Of a stretch of 64,000 nucleotides of DNA, positions 249 through 62,697 are shown in pieces (the first letter of the stretch is position 1; every line of letters starts with the position of its first letter). The notes beneath the pieces were generated by a model that searched no databases, was not told the origin of the DNA, and worked only from the letters and a program-made list of their open reading frames with translations. The translations under genes were made by a program, and so were the position numbers. This DNA is from Massilibacillus massiliensis (GTDB lineage Bacteria; Bacillota; Negativicutes; FLKF01). The stretch covers positions 1,321,534-1,385,533 of the forward strand of contig NZ_LT575483.1 in assembly GCF_900086705.1 (NCBI RefSeq). Direction: 5' to 3'.

Positions 249-2261
249 ATGTATTCAATACGTAACTTAAGTCATTATTTTTTATTTCTATCTTTCGCTT
301 TCACCTCAGTTGCATCACCAATTGCATTTGCAGCAGGCGATACATCAGAGGATATAGAAGCTACCAACACCGACGATTCAGAAAGAACTTTTGTATTTGA
401 TGAAATGGTCGTCACAGCCTCGTCCATTACCAGTCCCCTAATTCTTGAAACAGATCCTAAAAAACCTCGACAACCTGTACCAGCAGCCGATGGGGGCGGA
501 TATCTAAAGAACATTCCTGGTTTTTCCCTCACTCGCAAAGGAGGCACTGGCGGTGACCCACTGTTTCGCGGCATGGGCGGTACACGTCTGAATGTACTCA
601 TGGATGGTGCCTCTGTTTTAGGTGGATGTCCCAGCCGCATGGATCCGACAACGACCTATGCTTATCCAGAATCCTATAGTAAAATTACCTTGATCAAAGG
701 TCCGCAAAGCGTTTTATACGGCAGTAATATTGCCGGTACAATTCTGTTTGAAAGAGATACCGAACCATTCAGCGCACCGGGTACTCGTATGAGCAGCAGC
801 CTGCTCTTTGGCAGCGCTGGCCGCCGCGACCAATTTTTCGATGTTACTTCTGGCGACAAGAATAGTTATATACGCGTCATCAAAACCAAAAGCGATTCTG
901 ATGACTACAAGGATGGTAACGGACAAAAAATCCACTCCGCTTATTCCCGAGAAAGCTTGACTGGCATTATCGGTTTTACCCCAAATTCCAACACCCTTCT
1001 CGAATTTTCCGTTGATGACAGCAATGGTCAGGCTGCGTATGCAGACCGTATGATGGATGGTTCTAAATTTGACCGCACAAGTTACAATGTCAAATTTGAA
1101 AAAAAACATTTATCATCTTCCCTTGAAAACATCAAGTTCAATGCTTCAAGAACTTTTATTGATCACGTAATGGACAACTACTCTTTGCGTCCACTCTCCA
1201 ATATGTCGATGCCAAAATCAATGGAAGTAAAACGTACAACGACCAATGGACGCTTGGCGGCAGATTTTAACTTATCTCCAAGCAGTAGAGCAACGATTGG
1301 CCTTGATTATCAAAAAAATGTACATTCCGGAAATATGGTTATGAACAGTAAAGATTATGCGTCAGTTCCATTGAGTAAAGATATGACCTTTGAGAATTAT
1401 GGTTTTTTCACTGAATATACACATGATTTAAATGTATCAGATCGTTTACTCAGTGGTATTCGTTTTGACAACCTCTCTGTTACTTATGCAAAATACCCTG
1501 GTAGAGAGGATAAGGATAAGACACATGGTGCTTTCTTACGCTATGAACATGATTATGCAAATCATGCGATGACGTCTTATATTGGAATTGGTCATGCACA
1601 AAGACCTGCGGACTGGTGGGAAAGAAAAAAAACAGGAGGGATGAATGCCGTTCCAGAAAAAAACACGCAGTTGGACACTGGTCTTCTTTATCACTCTGAT
1701 AAAACAACCGCGAGTGTATCACTCTTCTATTCTAATGTCGATGATTTTATCCTATTAACCAATAGCGGAAATACTGTCAAAAATATCGATGCTTATCTAT
1801 ATGGCGGCGAAGCAACCTATTCTCATAAACTTTCAGAAACCCTTACAGGCACTGCGACGTTGGCTTATACAAGAGGTACAAATAAAAGCAATAACAGACC
1901 ACTGCCACAGATAGCACCGCTTGAAGGAAGTCTCGGTCTAAAATATGCCAAAGACAAATGGGAAACTGGTATCTTGTGGCGCATGGTGGCCGCACAAAAA
2001 CGCTATACAGCAGGTGATGGCAATGAAATCGGCACAGACATTGGTCCAAGCGGCGGTTTCGGTATTTTATCACTCAATACAGCCTATCGCGTAAACGAAA
2101 ATTGGACTGTGACTGCTGGAGTCGACAACCTGCTTGATAAAAACTATGCTGAATTTGTCAGCCGCACAGGTGCAGCGATCGCTGAGCTTGGTATTCCTTC
2201 CACGACAAGAGTCAATGAACCTGGGAGAACATTTTGGCTTAAAGCAAACTGCAAGTTTTAA
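249..2261 (+). CDS. TonB-dependent outer-membrane receptor, copper-receptor (OprC/NosA-like) family
   Basis: Outer-membrane beta-barrel receptor with a signal peptide (residues 1-29), a TonB-box-like DEMVVTAS near 51, a plug at about 75-170 and a barrel to the C-terminal phenylalanine; 670 aa is usual for the family. The plug carries CPSRM (C127, M131) and the barrel HVMDNYSLRP (H306, M308). These match the CxxxM and HxM copper-binding pairs known from Pseudomonas OprC, so the substrate is probably copper or a copper chelate rather than a ferric siderophore. GGAGG lies six bases before the ATG. A strong Fur box upstream suggests iron control, unusual for a copper receptor. The last 4 bases overlap the end of the convergent regulator gene. 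The family assignment rests on motifs recalled, not on a search. Confidence 0.88.
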   Translation: MYSIRNLSHYFLFLSFAFTSVASPIAFAAGDTSEDIEATNTDDSERTFVFDEMVVTASSITSPLILETDPKKPRQPVPAADGGGYLKNIPGFSLTRKGGTGGDPLFRGMGGTRLNVLMDGASVLGGCPSRMDPTTTYAYPESYSKITLIKGPQSVLYGSNIAGTILFERDTEPFSAPGTRMSSSLLFGSAGRRDQFFDVTSGDKNSYIRVIKTKSDSDDYKDGNGQKIHSAYSRESLTGIIGFTPNSNTLLEFSVDDSNGQAAYADRMMDGSKFDRTSYNVKFEKKHLSSSLENIKFNASRTFIDHVMDNYSLRPLSNMSMPKSMEVKRTTTNGRLAADFNLSPSSRATIGLDYQKNVHSGNMVMNSKDYASVPLSKDMTFENYGFFTEYTHDLNVSDRLLSGIRFDNLSVTYAKYPGREDKDKTHGAFLRYEHDYANHAMTSYIGIGHAQRPADWWERKKTGGMNAVPEKNTQLDTGLLYHSDKTTASVSLFYSNVDDFILLTNSGNTVKNIDAYLYGGEATYSHKLSETLTGTATLAYTRGTNKSNNRPLPQIAPLEGSLGLKYAKDKWETGILWRMVAAQKRYTAGDGNEIGTDIGPSGGFGILSLNTAYRVNENWTVTAGVDNLLDKNYAEFVSRTGAAIAELGIPSTTRVNEPGRTFWLKANCKF

Positions 2262-4246
2262 ACGGATTTAACCCTGATCCCCTTCCGCCCTCTTTGCAGA
2301 ACGATTTGGTGATTTTCTTGCATTTTTTTTAAAAGATACCGTACTTGATTCTCGGGAATAGCTAAACGTTCCGACAATGATCTTCGCCCGATTGAAATAT
2401 CTTGCTGGTTAGATTGATAGATTTCCTCATAAATTTTCTGCATTAACGTCGTTTCATCTTCCATAGCGAAATTTTTAGCTTGATGTGATAGTTGAAACTC
2501 ATCTGGCAAATGCTCCAACATAGGCGCCATGTCCGGGCAAAGATTCATTAAATATTCAACCACATTTTGCAATTCACGAATATTCCCCGGCCAACTATAA
2601 GATAAAAAGCAGGTCGTAATGTTTTTAAAATAATCTGCGACATCTACGCCATTCTTGCGGCTGCTATTATTTTGATAGAAAGCCTTCGCCAGTAATAAGA
2701 TATCTTGCCCCCGCTCCCTAAGTGGTGGAAGCTTAATCGGCAAAACATTCAACCGATAATACAAATCCTGACGAAATTGACCATCTGCAATCAGCTTTTT
2801 CAAATCACGATTCGTTGCAACGATCACTCTTACGTCAATCGGAATCAATTTAGAACTTCCTACGCGCCGAATTTGCTGTTCTTGTAGAACACGCAGCAAT
2901 TTCACTTGAAAAGTTAAAGGTGCATCACCAATTTCATCAAGAAAAATCGTTCCTTTATGTGCTTCTTCAAATAAACCGGCAGCACCGCCGCGGTTTGCAC
3001 CGGTAAAGGCGCCCTCGATATAACCAAACAATTCTGACTCCAGCAAATTCTCCGTCAAAGCGGCAAAATTCACCGCGATAAACGGACCATTGCTTCGCGG
3101 CGAGGCGTTATGAATTCCCTGCGCAATCAGTTCTTTTCCAGTTCCACTTTCTCCTTGAATTAAAATTGTTGAATTTGACACTGCCATTTTTTGCGCAATC
3201 TCCAGTACCTGCTCAATCGCTTTACTTTGTCCAATGACTTGAGAGAAAGTATATCTGGCAACTTTCTGTTCTTGTACAAATTTTCGCCGCACGGACTCTT
3301 CTAGGCGCCGAATCTCCGAAACATCTTTAAATGTATATATTCTGCCGAAATCTGGATTTTCCGGTTGCATATAGGCAACATTGACAATCAAATGATGTCG
3401 ATTGATCGTAACCAAAGATTCTTTGGTTTGATTCTTTTCATCCAAAACTTCGATTAAATTTGTGTTTGTAATTTGATAAACGGAATGACCGATTGCCTGC
3501 TCCGCTTTTATATCAAATAGCTTCTCCGCCACAGGATTTAATACAGAAATTTTTCCACTCCCGTCAATTGCAATAATTCCATCATGTACCGTATCAATCA
3601 CAGTTTCAAACTGCGTCTTTATTTTATTACTAAAATAAATCATCTGACTGTCGTTTTTAATTAAACGGATGATATCACGCACATAATTAGCAGATAAAAA
3701 GTTTGCATATACATTGAGTAAATTTAATTGCAGCAGCACCTCTACCAAAGTTGTAATATCAATCAGTCGCGTCTTTATATCAATAACCTCTTCCACAAAA
3801 TCGGGAACAAGTTCCTTTTCACCAGGGGTAATCGCGATTTTTAATTTAGGATAATGCAAGCTTTGCGGTGAATACGGATAATAATTGATATGATCAATCC
3901 CCAACGTTTGCAAAAGTGCAATGGTCTGATTTGCACTGGACGCTAAATCGTTTACCAGCAAAACATCCGTTCCTGCCGGAATTTCAAATAGCTTATTTAC
4001 TTCATGATAATTGATGGAACGCCTTGCAATTAATATCGGACAAGTTTTATTTACATAAATTTTAGCTCTTCGATAGGCGTGCTGACTTGAAAATAAAACA
4101 AGATCTGCCTTAATATTGGTTGGGATTAGCCCATTCTCTATATAGTAATTATTCACATTTACACGATTTCCCAATAATCGATATAACTGCTCACGAAACG
4201 CTATGGATGTATTCTGCCCCATTGCGACCACAACTAAATTTCTCAT
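2258..4246 (-). CDS. Sigma-54-dependent transcriptional activator (PAS + AAA+)
   Basis: Enhancer-binding protein of 662 aa. Residues 1-200 form an unrecognised sensor region, vaguely PrpR-like. A PAS domain follows at about 212-310, then a sigma-54 AAA+ domain at about 335-565 with Walker A GESGTGKE (365-372), the sigma-54 contact loop GAFTGA (412-417) and Walker B GTIFLDE (432-438). The C-terminus (about 600-662) should be the DNA-binding region, though it is not a standard Fis-type helix-turn-helix. It diverges from yjiH-yjiG-iadA, which has a clear -24/-12 promoter and a long palindrome in the shared intergenic space, so it very probably activates that operon. The PAS domain or N-terminal region would sense the inducer, which is unknown. 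Confidence 0.9.
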   Translation of the reverse strand: MRNLVVVAMGQNTSIAFREQLYRLLGNRVNVNNYYIENGLIPTNIKADLVLFSSQHAYRRAKIYVNKTCPILIARRSINYHEVNKLFEIPAGTDVLLVNDLASSANQTIALLQTLGIDHINYYPYSPQSLHYPKLKIAITPGEKELVPDFVEEVIDIKTRLIDITTLVEVLLQLNLLNVYANFLSANYVRDIIRLIKNDSQMIYFSNKIKTQFETVIDTVHDGIIAIDGSGKISVLNPVAEKLFDIKAEQAIGHSVYQITNTNLIEVLDEKNQTKESLVTINRHHLIVNVAYMQPENPDFGRIYTFKDVSEIRRLEESVRRKFVQEQKVARYTFSQVIGQSKAIEQVLEIAQKMAVSNSTILIQGESGTGKELIAQGIHNASPRSNGPFIAVNFAALTENLLESELFGYIEGAFTGANRGGAAGLFEEAHKGTIFLDEIGDAPLTFQVKLLRVLQEQQIRRVGSSKLIPIDVRVIVATNRDLKKLIADGQFRQDLYYRLNVLPIKLPPLRERGQDILLLAKAFYQNNSSRKNGVDVADYFKNITTCFLSYSWPGNIRELQNVVEYLMNLCPDMAPMLEHLPDEFQLSHQAKNFAMEDETTLMQKIYEEIYQSNQQDISIGRRSLSERLAIPENQVRYLLKKMQENHQIVLQRGRKGIRVKSV

Positions 4247-4261
4247 AAAAACCTTCTCTCT

Positions 4262-4316
4262 AAAAGGGAAATATAAAAGGGATTGATATTTTTAATCCCT
4301 TTTATATTTCCCTTTT
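4262..4316. promoter_or_regulatory. Perfect 23-bp-arm palindrome, candidate enhancer (UAS) for the sigma-54 activator
   Basis: Left arm 4262-4284 is the exact reverse complement of right arm 4294-4316, with a 9-base spacer. It lies between two divergent genes, so it cannot be the 3' terminator of either. It starts about 150 bases upstream of the -24/-12 promoter, the usual distance for an activator enhancer. Each arm holds two AAAAGGGA motifs, giving four potential half-sites. Confidence 0.7.
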
Positions 4317-4414
4317 TCATTTAGAAATCCTCCTTACACGCAAAAAAACGTTCTGAAACAAGGTTTACAGGATTACATTTGCCCCATATATTGAAAATTC
4401 TACAAAAAAATACA

Positions 4415-4431
4415 TTGGCATGAAAATTGCA
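4415..4431 (+). promoter_or_regulatory. Sigma-54 (-24/-12) promoter of the yjiH-yjiG-iadA operon
   Basis: TTGGCATGAAAATTGCA carries the invariant GG (4417-4418) and GC (4429-4430) with exactly 10 bases between them, matching the RpoN consensus. It lies 49 bases upstream of the first start codon of the operon. Confidence 0.87.
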
Positions 4432-4479: not shown

Positions 4480-5148
4480 ATGAAACAAACAAACAATTCT
4501 TCAGTACAAGTTCCTTTATCCGGGTATATCGCATTTTTCTTTGCCATTTTATTATTTTCCGGTATTTTTTCTTCAAGCGACGGCTGGATGAAAGCATTGG
4601 ACTTTAATGTACTTAATGGTTCTTTTGGTAAAATCGAAGGTATTGAAAAAGCTTTCACTTTCCGTGGTGCTGGCGGCAGCGGTGCAAGAGACGGCTTTTT
4701 ATTTGCTTTTGAATTAATACCCGCAGTTATTTTAGCTTTAGGTCTTGTAAATGTGATTGATGGTCTGGGCGGATTGAAAGCAGCGCAAAAACTCATGTCA
4801 CCGATTTTAAAACCATTATTAGGTGTTCCCGGTGTGGCTGCACTCGCCAATATTGCCAATATGCAAAGTACAGATGCAGCTGCCGGCATGGTAAAAGAAC
4901 TTGTCGATACAGGTGAATTAACAGATAAAGAACGCTCCGTTATCATCTCCTATCAGACAAGTGGCAGTGCATTTATTACCAACTATTTCTCTTCCGGTGC
5001 CGCGGTTTTCAGCTTTATGCTCGTGCCAATTATCGTTCCGATTCTTGTTATACTCGTCTTTAAAATCGTTGGCGCGAACTTAATGCGTTTATATTTAAAA
5101 GCAGTTTCAAATAAACCGGCAACAGGAGGCAACAATCATGACAACTAA
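4480..5148 (+). CDS. yjiH: YjiH-like nucleoside-recognition (Gate) membrane protein
   Basis: Integral membrane protein of 222 aa with hydrophobic segments near residues 12-30, 75-97 and 165-195 and the Gate/nucleoside-recognition pattern (FELIPAVILALGLV, then MQSTDAAAGM). In E. coli, yjiG and yjiH adjoin iadA; the same three-gene set occurs here, so this is probably half of a two-subunit transporter or channel serving the dipeptidase. AGGAGG precedes the ATG. The 3' end overlaps the next gene by 11 bases, implying coupled translation. Expression should depend on sigma-54. The transported substrate, perhaps isoaspartyl peptides, is inference. Confidence 0.8.
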   Translation: MKQTNNSSVQVPLSGYIAFFFAILLFSGIFSSSDGWMKALDFNVLNGSFGKIEGIEKAFTFRGAGGSGARDGFLFAFELIPAVILALGLVNVIDGLGGLKAAQKLMSPILKPLLGVPGVAALANIANMQSTDAAAGMVKELVDTGELTDKERSVIISYQTSGSAFITNYFSSGAAVFSFMLVPIIVPILVILVFKIVGANLMRLYLKAVSNKPATGGNNHDN

Positions 5149-5626
5149 ACCAATAGCAGAAGTAACACCAAATAAAAACATTCTTGATTTATTTATTGAC
5201 GGCGCACGCCGCGGTTTTACCATTGGGACAACGAGTCTTTTACCGAATGTTGTAATGGCTTTTGTTATCATTCGAATTTTAGAAGTTACCGGATTATTAA
5301 AAATTATTGGTATTGTCTGTGCACCAATCATGGCACTATGGGGGCTGCCAGGTGAAGCAGCGACTGTCATCATTACTTCGCTGATGAGTATGGGCGGCGG
5401 CATTGGCGTTGCTGTAAGCCTTTATACCAACGCACACTTAGATGCCATGCAAGTCACGATGCTTGTACCTGCGATCTACCTTATGGGAAATCCAGTACAA
5501 AACATTGGACGTTGTTTAGGAATCTCTGGCGTTAATACAAAACATTATCCTGCAATTTTAGCAATTTGCGTCATCAATGCCCTTCTATCAATTTGGGCAA
5601 TGCGTCTAATTCTCATGTTTTTTTAA
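5138..5626 (+). CDS. yjiG: YjiG-like membrane protein, partner of YjiH
   Basis: Small Gate-family membrane protein of 162 aa, about the length of E. coli YjiG. Hydrophobic stretches lie near residues 30-50, 55-75, 85-120 and 140-160, with the conserved GLPGEAATVIITSLMSMGGG and LMGNPVQNIGR segments. It overlaps yjiH by 11 bases and has its own AGGAGG ribosome site inside that gene. Together the two proteins probably make one membrane complex that imports the substrate of the downstream isoaspartyl dipeptidase; this function is inferred from gene order. Confidence 0.8.
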   Translation: MTTKPIAEVTPNKNILDLFIDGARRGFTIGTTSLLPNVVMAFVIIRILEVTGLLKIIGIVCAPIMALWGLPGEAATVIITSLMSMGGGIGVAVSLYTNAHLDAMQVTMLVPAIYLMGNPVQNIGRCLGISGVNTKHYPAILAICVINALLSIWAMRLILMFF

Positions 5627-5667
5627 TGCATAAATTTAAATTACTACAGTAAAAGGAGGACATGATG

Positions 5668-6867
5668 ATGTCCACAACACAACCATTTTTTACACTATTA
5701 CGTAATGCCCATATTATTGCACCAGATGAACTTGGCATACAAGATATTTTAATCGCAGGTAATAAAATCGCTGCCATCGGCAAGGATTTAAACCTTCCAC
5801 AAAATTATGACTGCAACGAAATTGATTTGGAAGGCCAAACGATCCTGCCTGGCTTTATCGACAGCCATGTGCATTTGATTGGCGGTGGCGGTGAAGGCGG
5901 TTATGCAACTAGAACACCGGAGATCGTTTTATCCAAAGTTACGACTTCCGGCGTAACCACATTAGTCGGATGCCTTGGAACCGACGGCACAACCCGCCAT
6001 ATGGAAAGTTTACTTGCAAAAGCACGCGGGCTTGAAGAAGAAGGTCTTTCCACTTATATTTATACTGGCTCTTATGAAATTCCAACACCAACGATTACCG
6101 GCAGTGTCCGCAAAGATATTATCATCATTGATAAAATCATCGGCACAGGCGAAATCGCTATGGCAGACCATCGTTCGGCGCAGCCAACCAAACGCGAATA
6201 TCAAAAATTAGCCGCCGAAGCAAGAGTCGGCGGCATGCTAAGCGGAAAAGCTGGTATCGTCGACATGCATATGGGTGACGGGACCGACGGCATGAAACTT
6301 TTATATGAGATTACAGCAAACGGAGAATTGCCAAAGTCACAATTTTTGCCGACGCATGTGAATCGCAATCCACAATTATTAGAAGAAAGCATTGATTGGG
6401 CAAAACAAGGCGGTATCATGGATATCACCTCCGGTGTCAGTCCGGCAAGCGGCGCATCTAAATCAATTAAACCTAGTAAAGCTGTAAAACAAGCACTGGA
6501 AGCCGGCGTTCCTTTGACACAAATCACCATGAGTTCAGATGGCAACGGAAGCGTGCCACTCTTTGATGAAAAGGGTAACACAATCGGTGTAGGCGTTGCT
6601 AGCCAAACTTCCATGCTCGAAGAAGTTCGTGATATGGTGCAGAATGAAGGTATAAAACTCAGCGATGCCATTCAAATTGTTACAAGCAATGTAGCCAGAG
6701 CTTTAAAACTCTATCCAGACAAAGGCAGCATCTGCCAAGGCGCTGCTGCAGACCTCATCGTGATCGACACAGCCTTTCATTTGACCAATGTTTGGTGTAA
6801 AGGCAAACACATGGTGGAAAACGGACAGCCTATCGTTTTTGGTACCTTCGAAGCGCATACAAAATAA
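5668..6867 (+). CDS. iadA: Isoaspartyl dipeptidase (beta-aspartyl peptidase)
   Basis: Amidohydrolase-superfamily metalloenzyme that cleaves isoaspartyl (beta-aspartyl) dipeptides arising from protein damage. Metal ligands are visible: HVH (H67, H69) followed by LIGGGGEGG, then VDMHMGDG, LPTHVNRN and MSSDGNG. The length (399 aa) and close likeness to E. coli IadA make the call firm. At the position of the carbamylated bridging lysine (E. coli K162) this protein has glutamate (E162, in GEIAMADHRS). Three in-frame ATGs follow the ribosome site; 5668 is chosen because GGAGG then lies eight bases upstream, but 5662 or 5665 are possible. It is the last gene of the sigma-54 operon and is followed by a terminator. 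Confidence 0.92.
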   Translation: MSTTQPFFTLLRNAHIIAPDELGIQDILIAGNKIAAIGKDLNLPQNYDCNEIDLEGQTILPGFIDSHVHLIGGGGEGGYATRTPEIVLSKVTTSGVTTLVGCLGTDGTTRHMESLLAKARGLEEEGLSTYIYTGSYEIPTPTITGSVRKDIIIIDKIIGTGEIAMADHRSAQPTKREYQKLAAEARVGGMLSGKAGIVDMHMGDGTDGMKLLYEITANGELPKSQFLPTHVNRNPQLLEESIDWAKQGGIMDITSGVSPASGASKSIKPSKAVKQALEAGVPLTQITMSSDGNGSVPLFDEKGNTIGVGVASQTSMLEEVRDMVQNEGIKLSDAIQIVTSNVARALKLYPDKGSICQGAAADLIVIDTAFHLTNVWCKGKHMVENGQPIVFGTFEAHTK

Positions 6868-6954: not shown

Positions 6955-7620
6955 TTACCCTTTTTTTGCTGTTACATATGCAGAAGCGCTTTCATAGGTC
7001 TGCTGTATATGATTCTGCATTTTTTGTCTTGCCATTTCGACATTGCCGACCTTTACAGCAAGCAATATTTCTAAATGTTCCTGCAGTGATGCCCTATAAC
7101 GGTAGTCACCACTAAAAATCGCGTTCATTCCAAATCGCCGAATTTTGTCACGCAATTCTCCCATCATACCGGTTAACAAATCATTTTGAGCCATTTCTAG
7201 CAAAAGTCCGTGGAAAGTAACATCCATATCCATGAAAACCTTACTGTCATATTTACTTGAACTATACTTTTGATTTTGATGACATTCCTCAAGACGTGTA
7301 ATAAACGCCTCTGTTCTATTTTCTATCGCCAGCTCCACAGCCAAAACTTCCAAGGCTGTACGTATCTGAAAGATATTTTTTAAATCCTCTTCTCCCATCT
7401 TTTTCACAATAATGCCTTTATACGGAATATACTCGACAAGGTTTTCCGATTCCAAGGCTTTGAGTGCTTCTCGAACGGGACTGCGGCTTACATTAAATTC
7501 CTCAGAAATTTTCCGTTCATTTAAAATATCTTCTTCGTTATAACGCTGACTAAGAATATCTTCTTTTAACATCGTATAAATCTGTTGTTTTAAAGATTCC
7601 GCTTTTTTTATCATTCTCAT
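6955..7620 (-). CDS. GntR-family (FCD subfamily) transcriptional regulator
   Basis: Winged helix-turn-helix of the GntR type at residues 1-72 (ISEEFNVSRSPVREALKALE), followed by an all-helical FCD ligand-binding domain to about 215 with a DxxxH metal-ligand pattern (DVTFH). Such regulators sense organic acids, usually as repressors. It is the last gene of the nitrilase-DUF2848-transporter set and probably controls it. The start at 7620 is chosen because GGGG lies about nine bases upstream; an in-frame TTG at 7635 is less likely. Two TAGCATGCTA palindromes just upstream suggest autoregulation. Confidence 0.85.
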   Translation of the reverse strand: MRMIKKAESLKQQIYTMLKEDILSQRYNEEDILNERKISEEFNVSRSPVREALKALESENLVEYIPYKGIIVKKMGEEDLKNIFQIRTALEVLAVELAIENRTEAFITRLEECHQNQKYSSSKYDSKVFMDMDVTFHGLLLEMAQNDLLTGMMGELRDKIRRFGMNAIFSGDYRYRASLQEHLEILLAVKVGNVEMARQKMQNHIQQTYESASAYVTAKKG

Positions 7621-7662
7621 CGTTGCAAACCCCAATTATAAATTTTTCATTTTAAATAAAAA

Positions 7663-7704
7663 TAGCATGCTATATAAATCATATCATCTTTATATAGCAT
7701 GCTA
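7663..7704. promoter_or_regulatory. Paired palindromes, GntR operator candidate or terminator
   Basis: TAGCATGCTA, itself a palindrome, occurs at 7663-7672 and 7695-7704 within a larger inverted repeat of 16-base arms (7663-7678 and 7689-7704). On the minus strand the stem is followed by T-rich sequence, so it could also end the transporter transcript. Position immediately before the GntR start favours an operator. Confidence 0.5.
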
Positions 7705-12593: not shown

Positions 12594-12629
12594 CCGATTT
12601 TGACTCTAAATCGATCTATCTCATCGACT

Positions 12630-12679
12630 AAATACAAAACAGGCTTTCGTTAAATTTAACGAAAGCCTGTTTTGTATTT
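12630..12679. terminator. Bidirectional terminator with 25-base perfect arms
   Basis: Left arm 12630-12654 and right arm 12655-12679 are exact reverse complements with no spacer; AT-rich ends give a T tract on both strands. It separates the convergent DUF1634 and PepSY genes. The right arm contains the last codons and stop of the PepSY gene. Confidence 0.88.
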
Positions 12680-14191
12680 AGGGCTATCTTCTAATTGCAA
12701 TATTGTCCACCGTTTTTTCAAACTTCTGGCTGCAGCCCACAGCATTAATCCAAAGATAAGAACTGTTATATCTACACCTGCAGTGACCCAATCACCATTT
12801 ACAATCGTTTTTGATAATCCAACCGATGTCATTAACGCATTTAACAAGGGCAATCCCAGCGCAAGTCCCGCTGCCAGATAAAGTTGCTGCGGCCATGCTT
12901 TTTCCTTTGGCTGCAAAAAAGCATGAATGAATAGACAAAGCCAAAAGAAGAAAAATGCGCCAATCTCGGCTTCCGCTCGCCCTTTCAATGCAACTGGCAG
13001 CAAGCGATTCACCCATAAAAAACCAAGTGAAGCTGTAATCAATCCAGCAATTACACCTATATTAATAGATTCTGCCACCCGAAAAAGATCGCGGTCAGTT
13101 CCCCATTCCTTGGCATATCTCGCTCGTCTCTTAATCGTAAAAAACACGAGTCCCGTGCCAATCATGATTGAGCTGATCATTCCCAAGATAAAGTACAGCC
13201 ACGCCATAGGATAGCCGCCAAATTTGACAATATGCAAGCCTACCAGAGATCGTACAAGCGTCGCTTGTGTCCCCCATTTCGTCTGACTTACCAGCCATTC
13301 ACCACTTACGCCATCAAATGTAACCCGATCAGCAATCGCTAAAAGACGATCATCGACACGTCGCATAAAATTAATCACGGTATTACGACTATCGGGATTT
13401 GGAACTTGTATACACCAAATATTGCCGTCACCAATTTCCCGTTCTGCCGCCGGTACTAAATCAGCAAGTGGATACGTCTGGACCTTTTCTCGACTCTTAG
13501 GTCTTTCCACAACCTGTAAGAGATCGACCCAAAACTTATTTTGCCCTTGGTAGAATGTATGCATTGATACAGGCATGATATCCATAAAGGTCATCACCAA
13601 CCCAGAATATGTGATCATCACTACAAAGGGCAGTGTCAAAATTCCCGTCATCGTATGTACACTGAGCCAGCTACGTCGCCAACGCAAAAAAAAGAAATCT
13701 TTGATTACACTGCGGCGAATCACAATACCAGAAATTACTGCTGCTAACATCGCCAATCCGGCTATGCTGACCAACCAAGTGCCTGTATGCCCCCGACTCA
13801 ATTCATAATGAAAAAGTGCAAAAAACTCCCCGCCCTCTGTATCTCTAGCCTTAATAACCGCGCCCGTAGACGGATCAATAAATTGATGAAAATCCTGCTT
13901 ACCTTTTTTCCAGGAAACTTCTACATTTGAGATGCGTCCCTGCGGAAGGGTAATAAACCAAACATCAGCATCAGAGGCGAGCTGCCGCAGTGCTTTTTCT
14001 GCAGCAGCAACAGATACAGCCGTTGCTGCGCGCTGCTGCACACGCACTTCCGGACGCATCCATGCACTGATTTCTGGTTCAAACACCGCAATTGTACCAG
14101 TAAAGAACACAATAAATAATACCCAACCAAGACATAGTCCACCCCAAGTATGAAACATCTTCATTCCTTGCAACATTGTATTTTTCCTCAC
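12656..14191 (-). CDS. PepSY-associated membrane protein, probable ferric-siderophore reductase
   Basis: Membrane protein of 511 aa in the PepSY-TM/PiuB-like family. The four-helix core begins with HTWGGLCLGWVLFIVFFTGT (residues 14-33) and continues with segments near 140-160, 185-210 and 335-355; a soluble PepSY-containing loop lies between. Four more hydrophobic segments (about 375-500) form a C-terminal extension. Family members are thought to reduce siderophore-bound iron using haem or flavin partners. It follows the siderophore receptor and a DUF3649 gene on the same strand, an order familiar from Proteobacteria. The GTG start has GGAGG seven bases upstream. The stop codon lies inside a terminator stem. 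Confidence 0.85.
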   Translation of the reverse strand: MRKNTMLQGMKMFHTWGGLCLGWVLFIVFFTGTIAVFEPEISAWMRPEVRVQQRAATAVSVAAAEKALRQLASDADVWFITLPQGRISNVEVSWKKGKQDFHQFIDPSTGAVIKARDTEGGEFFALFHYELSRGHTGTWLVSIAGLAMLAAVISGIVIRRSVIKDFFFLRWRRSWLSVHTMTGILTLPFVVMITYSGLVMTFMDIMPVSMHTFYQGQNKFWVDLLQVVERPKSREKVQTYPLADLVPAAEREIGDGNIWCIQVPNPDSRNTVINFMRRVDDRLLAIADRVTFDGVSGEWLVSQTKWGTQATLVRSLVGLHIVKFGGYPMAWLYFILGMISSIMIGTGLVFFTIKRRARYAKEWGTDRDLFRVAESINIGVIAGLITASLGFLWVNRLLPVALKGRAEAEIGAFFFFWLCLFIHAFLQPKEKAWPQQLYLAAGLALGLPLLNALMTSVGLSKTIVNGDWVTAGVDITVLIFGLMLWAAARSLKKRWTILQLEDSPKYKTGFR

Positions 14192-19741: not shown

Positions 19742-19779
19742 TAAGTAAGAACAGGTTTCATTTCTCACCCCAACATTTA

Positions 19780-19835
19780 AAATAGAAAAAGAAAGAGTTC
19801 CAATCTTATCATTGGAACTCTTTCTTTTTCTATTT
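19780..19835. terminator. Bidirectional terminator between tonB and the binding-protein gene
   Basis: 24-base arms 19781-19804 and 19811-19834 are exact complements around a six-base loop, A-rich on the left and T-rich on the right. It serves the convergent tonB and binding-protein genes. Confidence 0.88.
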
Positions 19836-19851
19836 TATTTTAGGTAAACGG

Positions 19852-61035: not shown

Positions 61036-62697
<1,662 letters not shown>

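Follow-up and report, generated by a model that had tools for sequence, protein, structure and literature searches.

The type of switch considered here is well known from peptidase and membrane-protein operons of Clostridioides difficile. SigL-dependent operons in that species include CD2699–CD2697 (EBP CD2700), CD2862–CD2860 (EBP CD2863) and CD0166–CD0165 (EBP CD0167), and both CD2699 and CD0166 show lower expression when sigL is mutated (PMC7438776). Compared by description, these operons share with our locus a sigma-54 promoter and an adjacent EBP that acts on peptidase and membrane-protein or transporter genes, but they are not described as iadA. Similarly, the main text of a study of Clostridiales EBP regulons (PMC6615313) presents systems such as XcyR (malY-pepT) and YpdR in which, as here, an EBP, a UAS and a sigma-54 promoter mostly serve adjacent targets, some of them in peptide degradation. 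That main text places the UAS 100–250 bp upstream, a range into which the UAS–promoter distance found here falls, and makes no mention of iadA; it also reports a Fis-type domain in 335 of 490 Clostridiales EBPs, whereas our locus combines a predicted winged helix with AAAGGGA units. For the isoaspartyl pathway, a search of the open literature turned up no description of iadA under sigma-54 control, in agreement with a sequence-only reading of this DNA that knew of no such description.

The window, the whole analyzed stretch of 64,000 nucleotides from Massilibacillus massiliensis, contains an intergenic region between the activator gene (2258–4246, −) and yjiH (from 4480, +) that holds both an inverted repeat and a sigma-54 site. 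The features of the locus are as follows:

2258–4246, minus strand: sigma-54 activator (EBP) with a predicted N-terminal alpha/beta domain (residues 1–198), PAS, AAA+ with GAFTGA, and a modeled winged helix (~598–659)
4262–4316, no strand assigned: predicted UAS, an inverted repeat (23-bp arms, 9-nt loop) that contains four AAAAGGGA units; the units are enriched in 22 orthologous loci
4415–4431, plus strand: predicted sigma-54 −24/−12 promoter of yjiH-yjiG-iadA, TTGGCATGAAAATTGCA, GG-N10-GC
4480–5148, plus strand: yjiH-like membrane protein (Gate domain, synteny)
5138–5626, plus strand: yjiG-like membrane protein (NF007811 above cut-off)
5662–6867, plus strand: iadA, predicted type I isoaspartyl dipeptidase (TIGR01975, 524.5 bits; cut-off 331.25)

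On the far side of the activator gene, a TonB-receptor gene (249–2261, +) overlaps it tail to tail (window 2258–2261). Beyond iadA, two palindromic decamers, TAGCATGCTA, form an inverted repeat at 7663–7704 beside a GntR/FCD regulator gene (6955–7635, −), of which they are likely the operator. Farther along, collagen-like GXT repeats occur in a 551-aa protein (window 61042–62697).

The −24/−12 element that the sequence-only reading had placed before yjiH-yjiG-iadA is present with the GG-N10-GC arrangement. In the 4.0-Mb genome, TTGGCAYGNNNNTTGCA occurs six times and the reversed pattern not at all. The genome encodes rpoN (a 458-aa frame, Sigma54_DBD 190.6 bits), and a GG-N10-GC site lies between the EBP and the divergent operon in 22/22 orthologous loci. 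The sequence features of a bEBP–UAS sigma-54 regulon are present, namely a −24/−12 promoter, a GAFTGA-containing AAA+ activator and a predicted UAS conserved in sequence at the locus, and rpoN elsewhere in the genome, from which we infer that yjiH-yjiG-iadA is controlled by RpoN and the divergent activator. Among the operon products, YjiG and IadA exceed their NCBIfam equivalog cut-offs, while YjiH was named from its Gate domain and position. In IadA, the residue that corresponds to the carbamylated Lys162 of the E. coli enzyme is Glu, the metal ligand of the type I class (PMC5517026), to which the protein belongs as judged from its sequence.

The divergent PAS/AAA+ activator was also borne out, with PAS, Sigma54_activat and AAA lid domains and GAFTGA in its sequence. 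No Pfam family matches residues 1–198, which are predicted by the structure model to form an alpha/beta domain. Fold matches to this domain were weak, among them ones to binding proteins, to glutamate racemases and to the sensor domain of PrpR (2pju); Foldseek gave none at E ≤ 0.001, and a PDB sequence search yielded nothing credible. PrpR-type EBPs likewise have, ahead of AAA+, a two-lobed alpha/beta domain at the N-terminus, but we rejected a PrpR identity given the lack of a Pfam match in the N-domain and a score below the PrpR equivalog cut-off. At the C-terminus, the model shows a helix-helix-helix-strand-strand arrangement (~598–659), that is, a winged helix, with sub-threshold or weak matches to CggR_N and HTH_24. 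The Fis-type HTH (PF02954) was not matched in the activator, and an NtrC-like EBP with a Fis-type DNA-binding domain was rejected on this ground together with the modeled winged helix. Some orthologues (L077, L078, L079, L089, L093, L094, L095 and L096; ~555–582 aa) apparently lack PAS while retaining the winged helix, AAA+ and the N-domain.

The inverted repeat ends 15 bp from the activator start codon. Its arms (4262–4284 and 4294–4316) are 23 nt each, 100% complementary and separated by a 9-nt loop, and they carry the four AAAAGGGA units noted previously, two on each arm; when this 100-bp stretch was shuffled, inverted repeats reached a length of 9 at most. The perfection of the arms thus stands, and the extent of the "46-base palindrome" is amended to 46 paired bases within a 55-bp element. 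The window has two more perfect inverted repeats, at 12627–12681 and 19777–19837, each with 27-bp arms, and no Rfam family was matched in it. The tandem pattern AAAGGGA-N2-8-AAAGGGA has three occurrences in 4 Mb, in the two arms of this element and once beside transposase-like frames, and a dispersed repeat was accordingly rejected. A genome scan with this tandem and with AAAGGGA..TCCCTTT revealed no wider regulon, because the other AAAGGGA..TCCCTTT places resemble hairpins of the terminator kind. The palindrome is also spanned by a minus-strand 25-aa uORF (4320–4243) with AAGGAGG and an ATGA overlap at the activator start; inspection of L031 and L036, the two closest relatives, showed that it is not kept there, and we discarded it as a shared feature. 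By eye, an AGGATTT-like element (window ~4327–4333, −) seems to be present again at the same place in orthologues, where the GGGA cluster ends on the promoter side, and it may belong to the promoter of the activator gene itself.

We compared 22 distinct orthologous EBP loci, nearly all from Negativicutes, including Massilibacillus, Propionispira, Megamonas, Pectinatus, Mitsuokella, Pelosinus, Anaerospora and one Peptococcaceae genome. When k-mers were counted with no motif chosen beforehand, AAGGGA came out as the top 6-mer upstream of the EBP, at UAS-like distances, with 41 copies in 17/22 loci versus 3.6 in shuffles. At least one (A/T)(A/G/T)GGGA unit is present in 22/22 loci; since bare GGGA is expected by chance in ~16/22, this count is weak and the weight falls on the multi-copy AAGGGA signal. 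The arrangement of the units varies: they are inverted with matched arms in the window, L031, L036, L092 and L090, of mixed orientation in L032, L033, L087, L089 and L083, in the same orientation only in L034, L091, L074, L078 and L079, and single in L035 and L088. Because several orthologues carry the units solely as direct repeats, perfect symmetry is not the conserved feature; as far as these sequences indicate, the common feature is the AAAGGGA unit. The enhancer role proposed for the palindrome is therefore supported for its units, which are kept in orthologues together with the sigma-54 site, and not for its symmetry, and the palindrome is best read as one arrangement of predicted activator sites. 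A same-genome paralogue of the EBP (36% identical), divergent to yjiHG and an M20 peptidase and with its own sigma-54 site, is without AAGGGA units. Less favorable to the enhancer reading, related EBPs outside the class lack both this layout and the units. Several paralogous EBPs are divergent to yjiHG and M20-like peptidases or to transporter and asparaginase-like genes (assigned by eye except for L097), and the wider EBP family seems to act in the use of peptides and amides.

From the promoter, the protein domains, the conserved UAS units and the link to isoaspartyl peptidases, all seen at the sequence level, we consider it probable that 4262–4316 is a UAS read by the divergent sigma-54 activator, which would switch on yjiH-yjiG-iadA in response to an isoaspartyl dipeptide or related signal. 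The N-terminal domain, the PAS domain or both would sense isoaspartyl dipeptides or a related metabolite, and the C-terminal winged helix would read the AAAGGGA cluster. Assembled on the UAS, the activator would reach the sigma-54 RNA polymerase ~125 bp away through DNA looping, and this contact would turn on yjiH-yjiG-iadA and permit the use of isoaspartyl dipeptides. Since the UAS ends 15 bp from the activator start codon, binding there may also limit the activator's own expression.

The element could instead act through its hairpin. On the plus strand the stem is followed by TTTTTCATTT and has a terminator-like score, other AAAGGGA..TCCCTTT places in this genome resemble terminator-type hairpins, and the tail-to-tail overlap of the TonB-receptor gene with the EBP stop leaves no intergenic room for a terminator; an intrinsic terminator or boundary at the palindrome would then guard yjiH-yjiG-iadA against antisense readthrough from the TonB-receptor gene. 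However, in most orthologues the units form no significant hairpin, several having direct repeats only, and the element sits at the distance of a UAS within a divergent promoter region, which makes this explanation very improbable. We regard as very improbable an RNA hairpin in the activator 5′ leader that serves as an attenuator or controls stability or translation. The activator leader folds at −35.1 kcal/mol (z ~ −6), with strong folds in L031, L036 and L092 too, but z is near zero in most orthologues, and a conserved RNA hairpin was rejected as a shared feature because strong folding is confined to few of them. The spacing of units differs among the window and its two closest relatives yet is equal on both arms (13/13, 12/12 and 14/14), as a hairpin would favor; template-switch correction of quasipalindromes would also keep the arms matched (PMC7202029), and the perfect symmetry perhaps arose by such template-switch mutation or correction.

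Another regulator, rather than the activator, could bind the AAAGGGA units and control the activator gene, for which their position ~16–70 bp upstream of the EBP start would be operator-like. The units nevertheless accompany the EBP clade across many genera, as well as in one Peptococcaceae genome, and the same-genome paralogue has none; we judge this arrangement very unlikely as well.

The targets opposite the EBP are mostly isoaspartyl peptidases. iadA is in the target operon of 18/22 loci, in L088 behind other genes, and the operon of L093 stops at yjiG. Among 380 genomes of the class, the presence of iadA goes with that of the EBP (18/22 versus 37/358; the Fisher test, p ~2e-13, ignores relatedness). 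In L032, the target is an Asparaginase_2 enzyme whose best NCBIfam match, the beta-aspartyl-peptidase IaaA, is below cut-off, followed by a DcuC transporter; this peptidase is of the unrelated, IaaA-like Ntn type. L033 and L087 have DcuC plus iadA, so that DcuC takes the place of YjiHG in three loci. Because enzyme and carrier differ in this way, isoaspartyl-dipeptide use appears from the gene content to be the main theme shared by the targets. L092 and L090 face M20 peptidases, and for this reason the signal of the clade may extend beyond isoaspartyl peptides. DcuC members carry C4-dicarboxylates, so the replacement carrier may transport products instead of dipeptides, and any claim on the YjiHG substrate is weaker for it. 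We can only tentatively suggest the most specific scheme, which is rather doubtful: a dedicated isoaspartyl dipeptide sensor whose winged helix reads AAAGGGA in any orientation, with YjiH-YjiG as the dipeptide transporter, and a switch kept while IadA gives way to an IaaA-like enzyme and YjiHG to DcuC.

If the activator-read UAS is correct, isoaspartyl peptides derived from damaged proteins or cyanophycin would be scavenged through a sensed and inducible pathway in these bacteria. It would also provide a testable class of inducers, a candidate role for the uncharacterized YjiG and YjiH membrane proteins, and a case in which the unit of a UAS is kept while its orientation and spacing vary.
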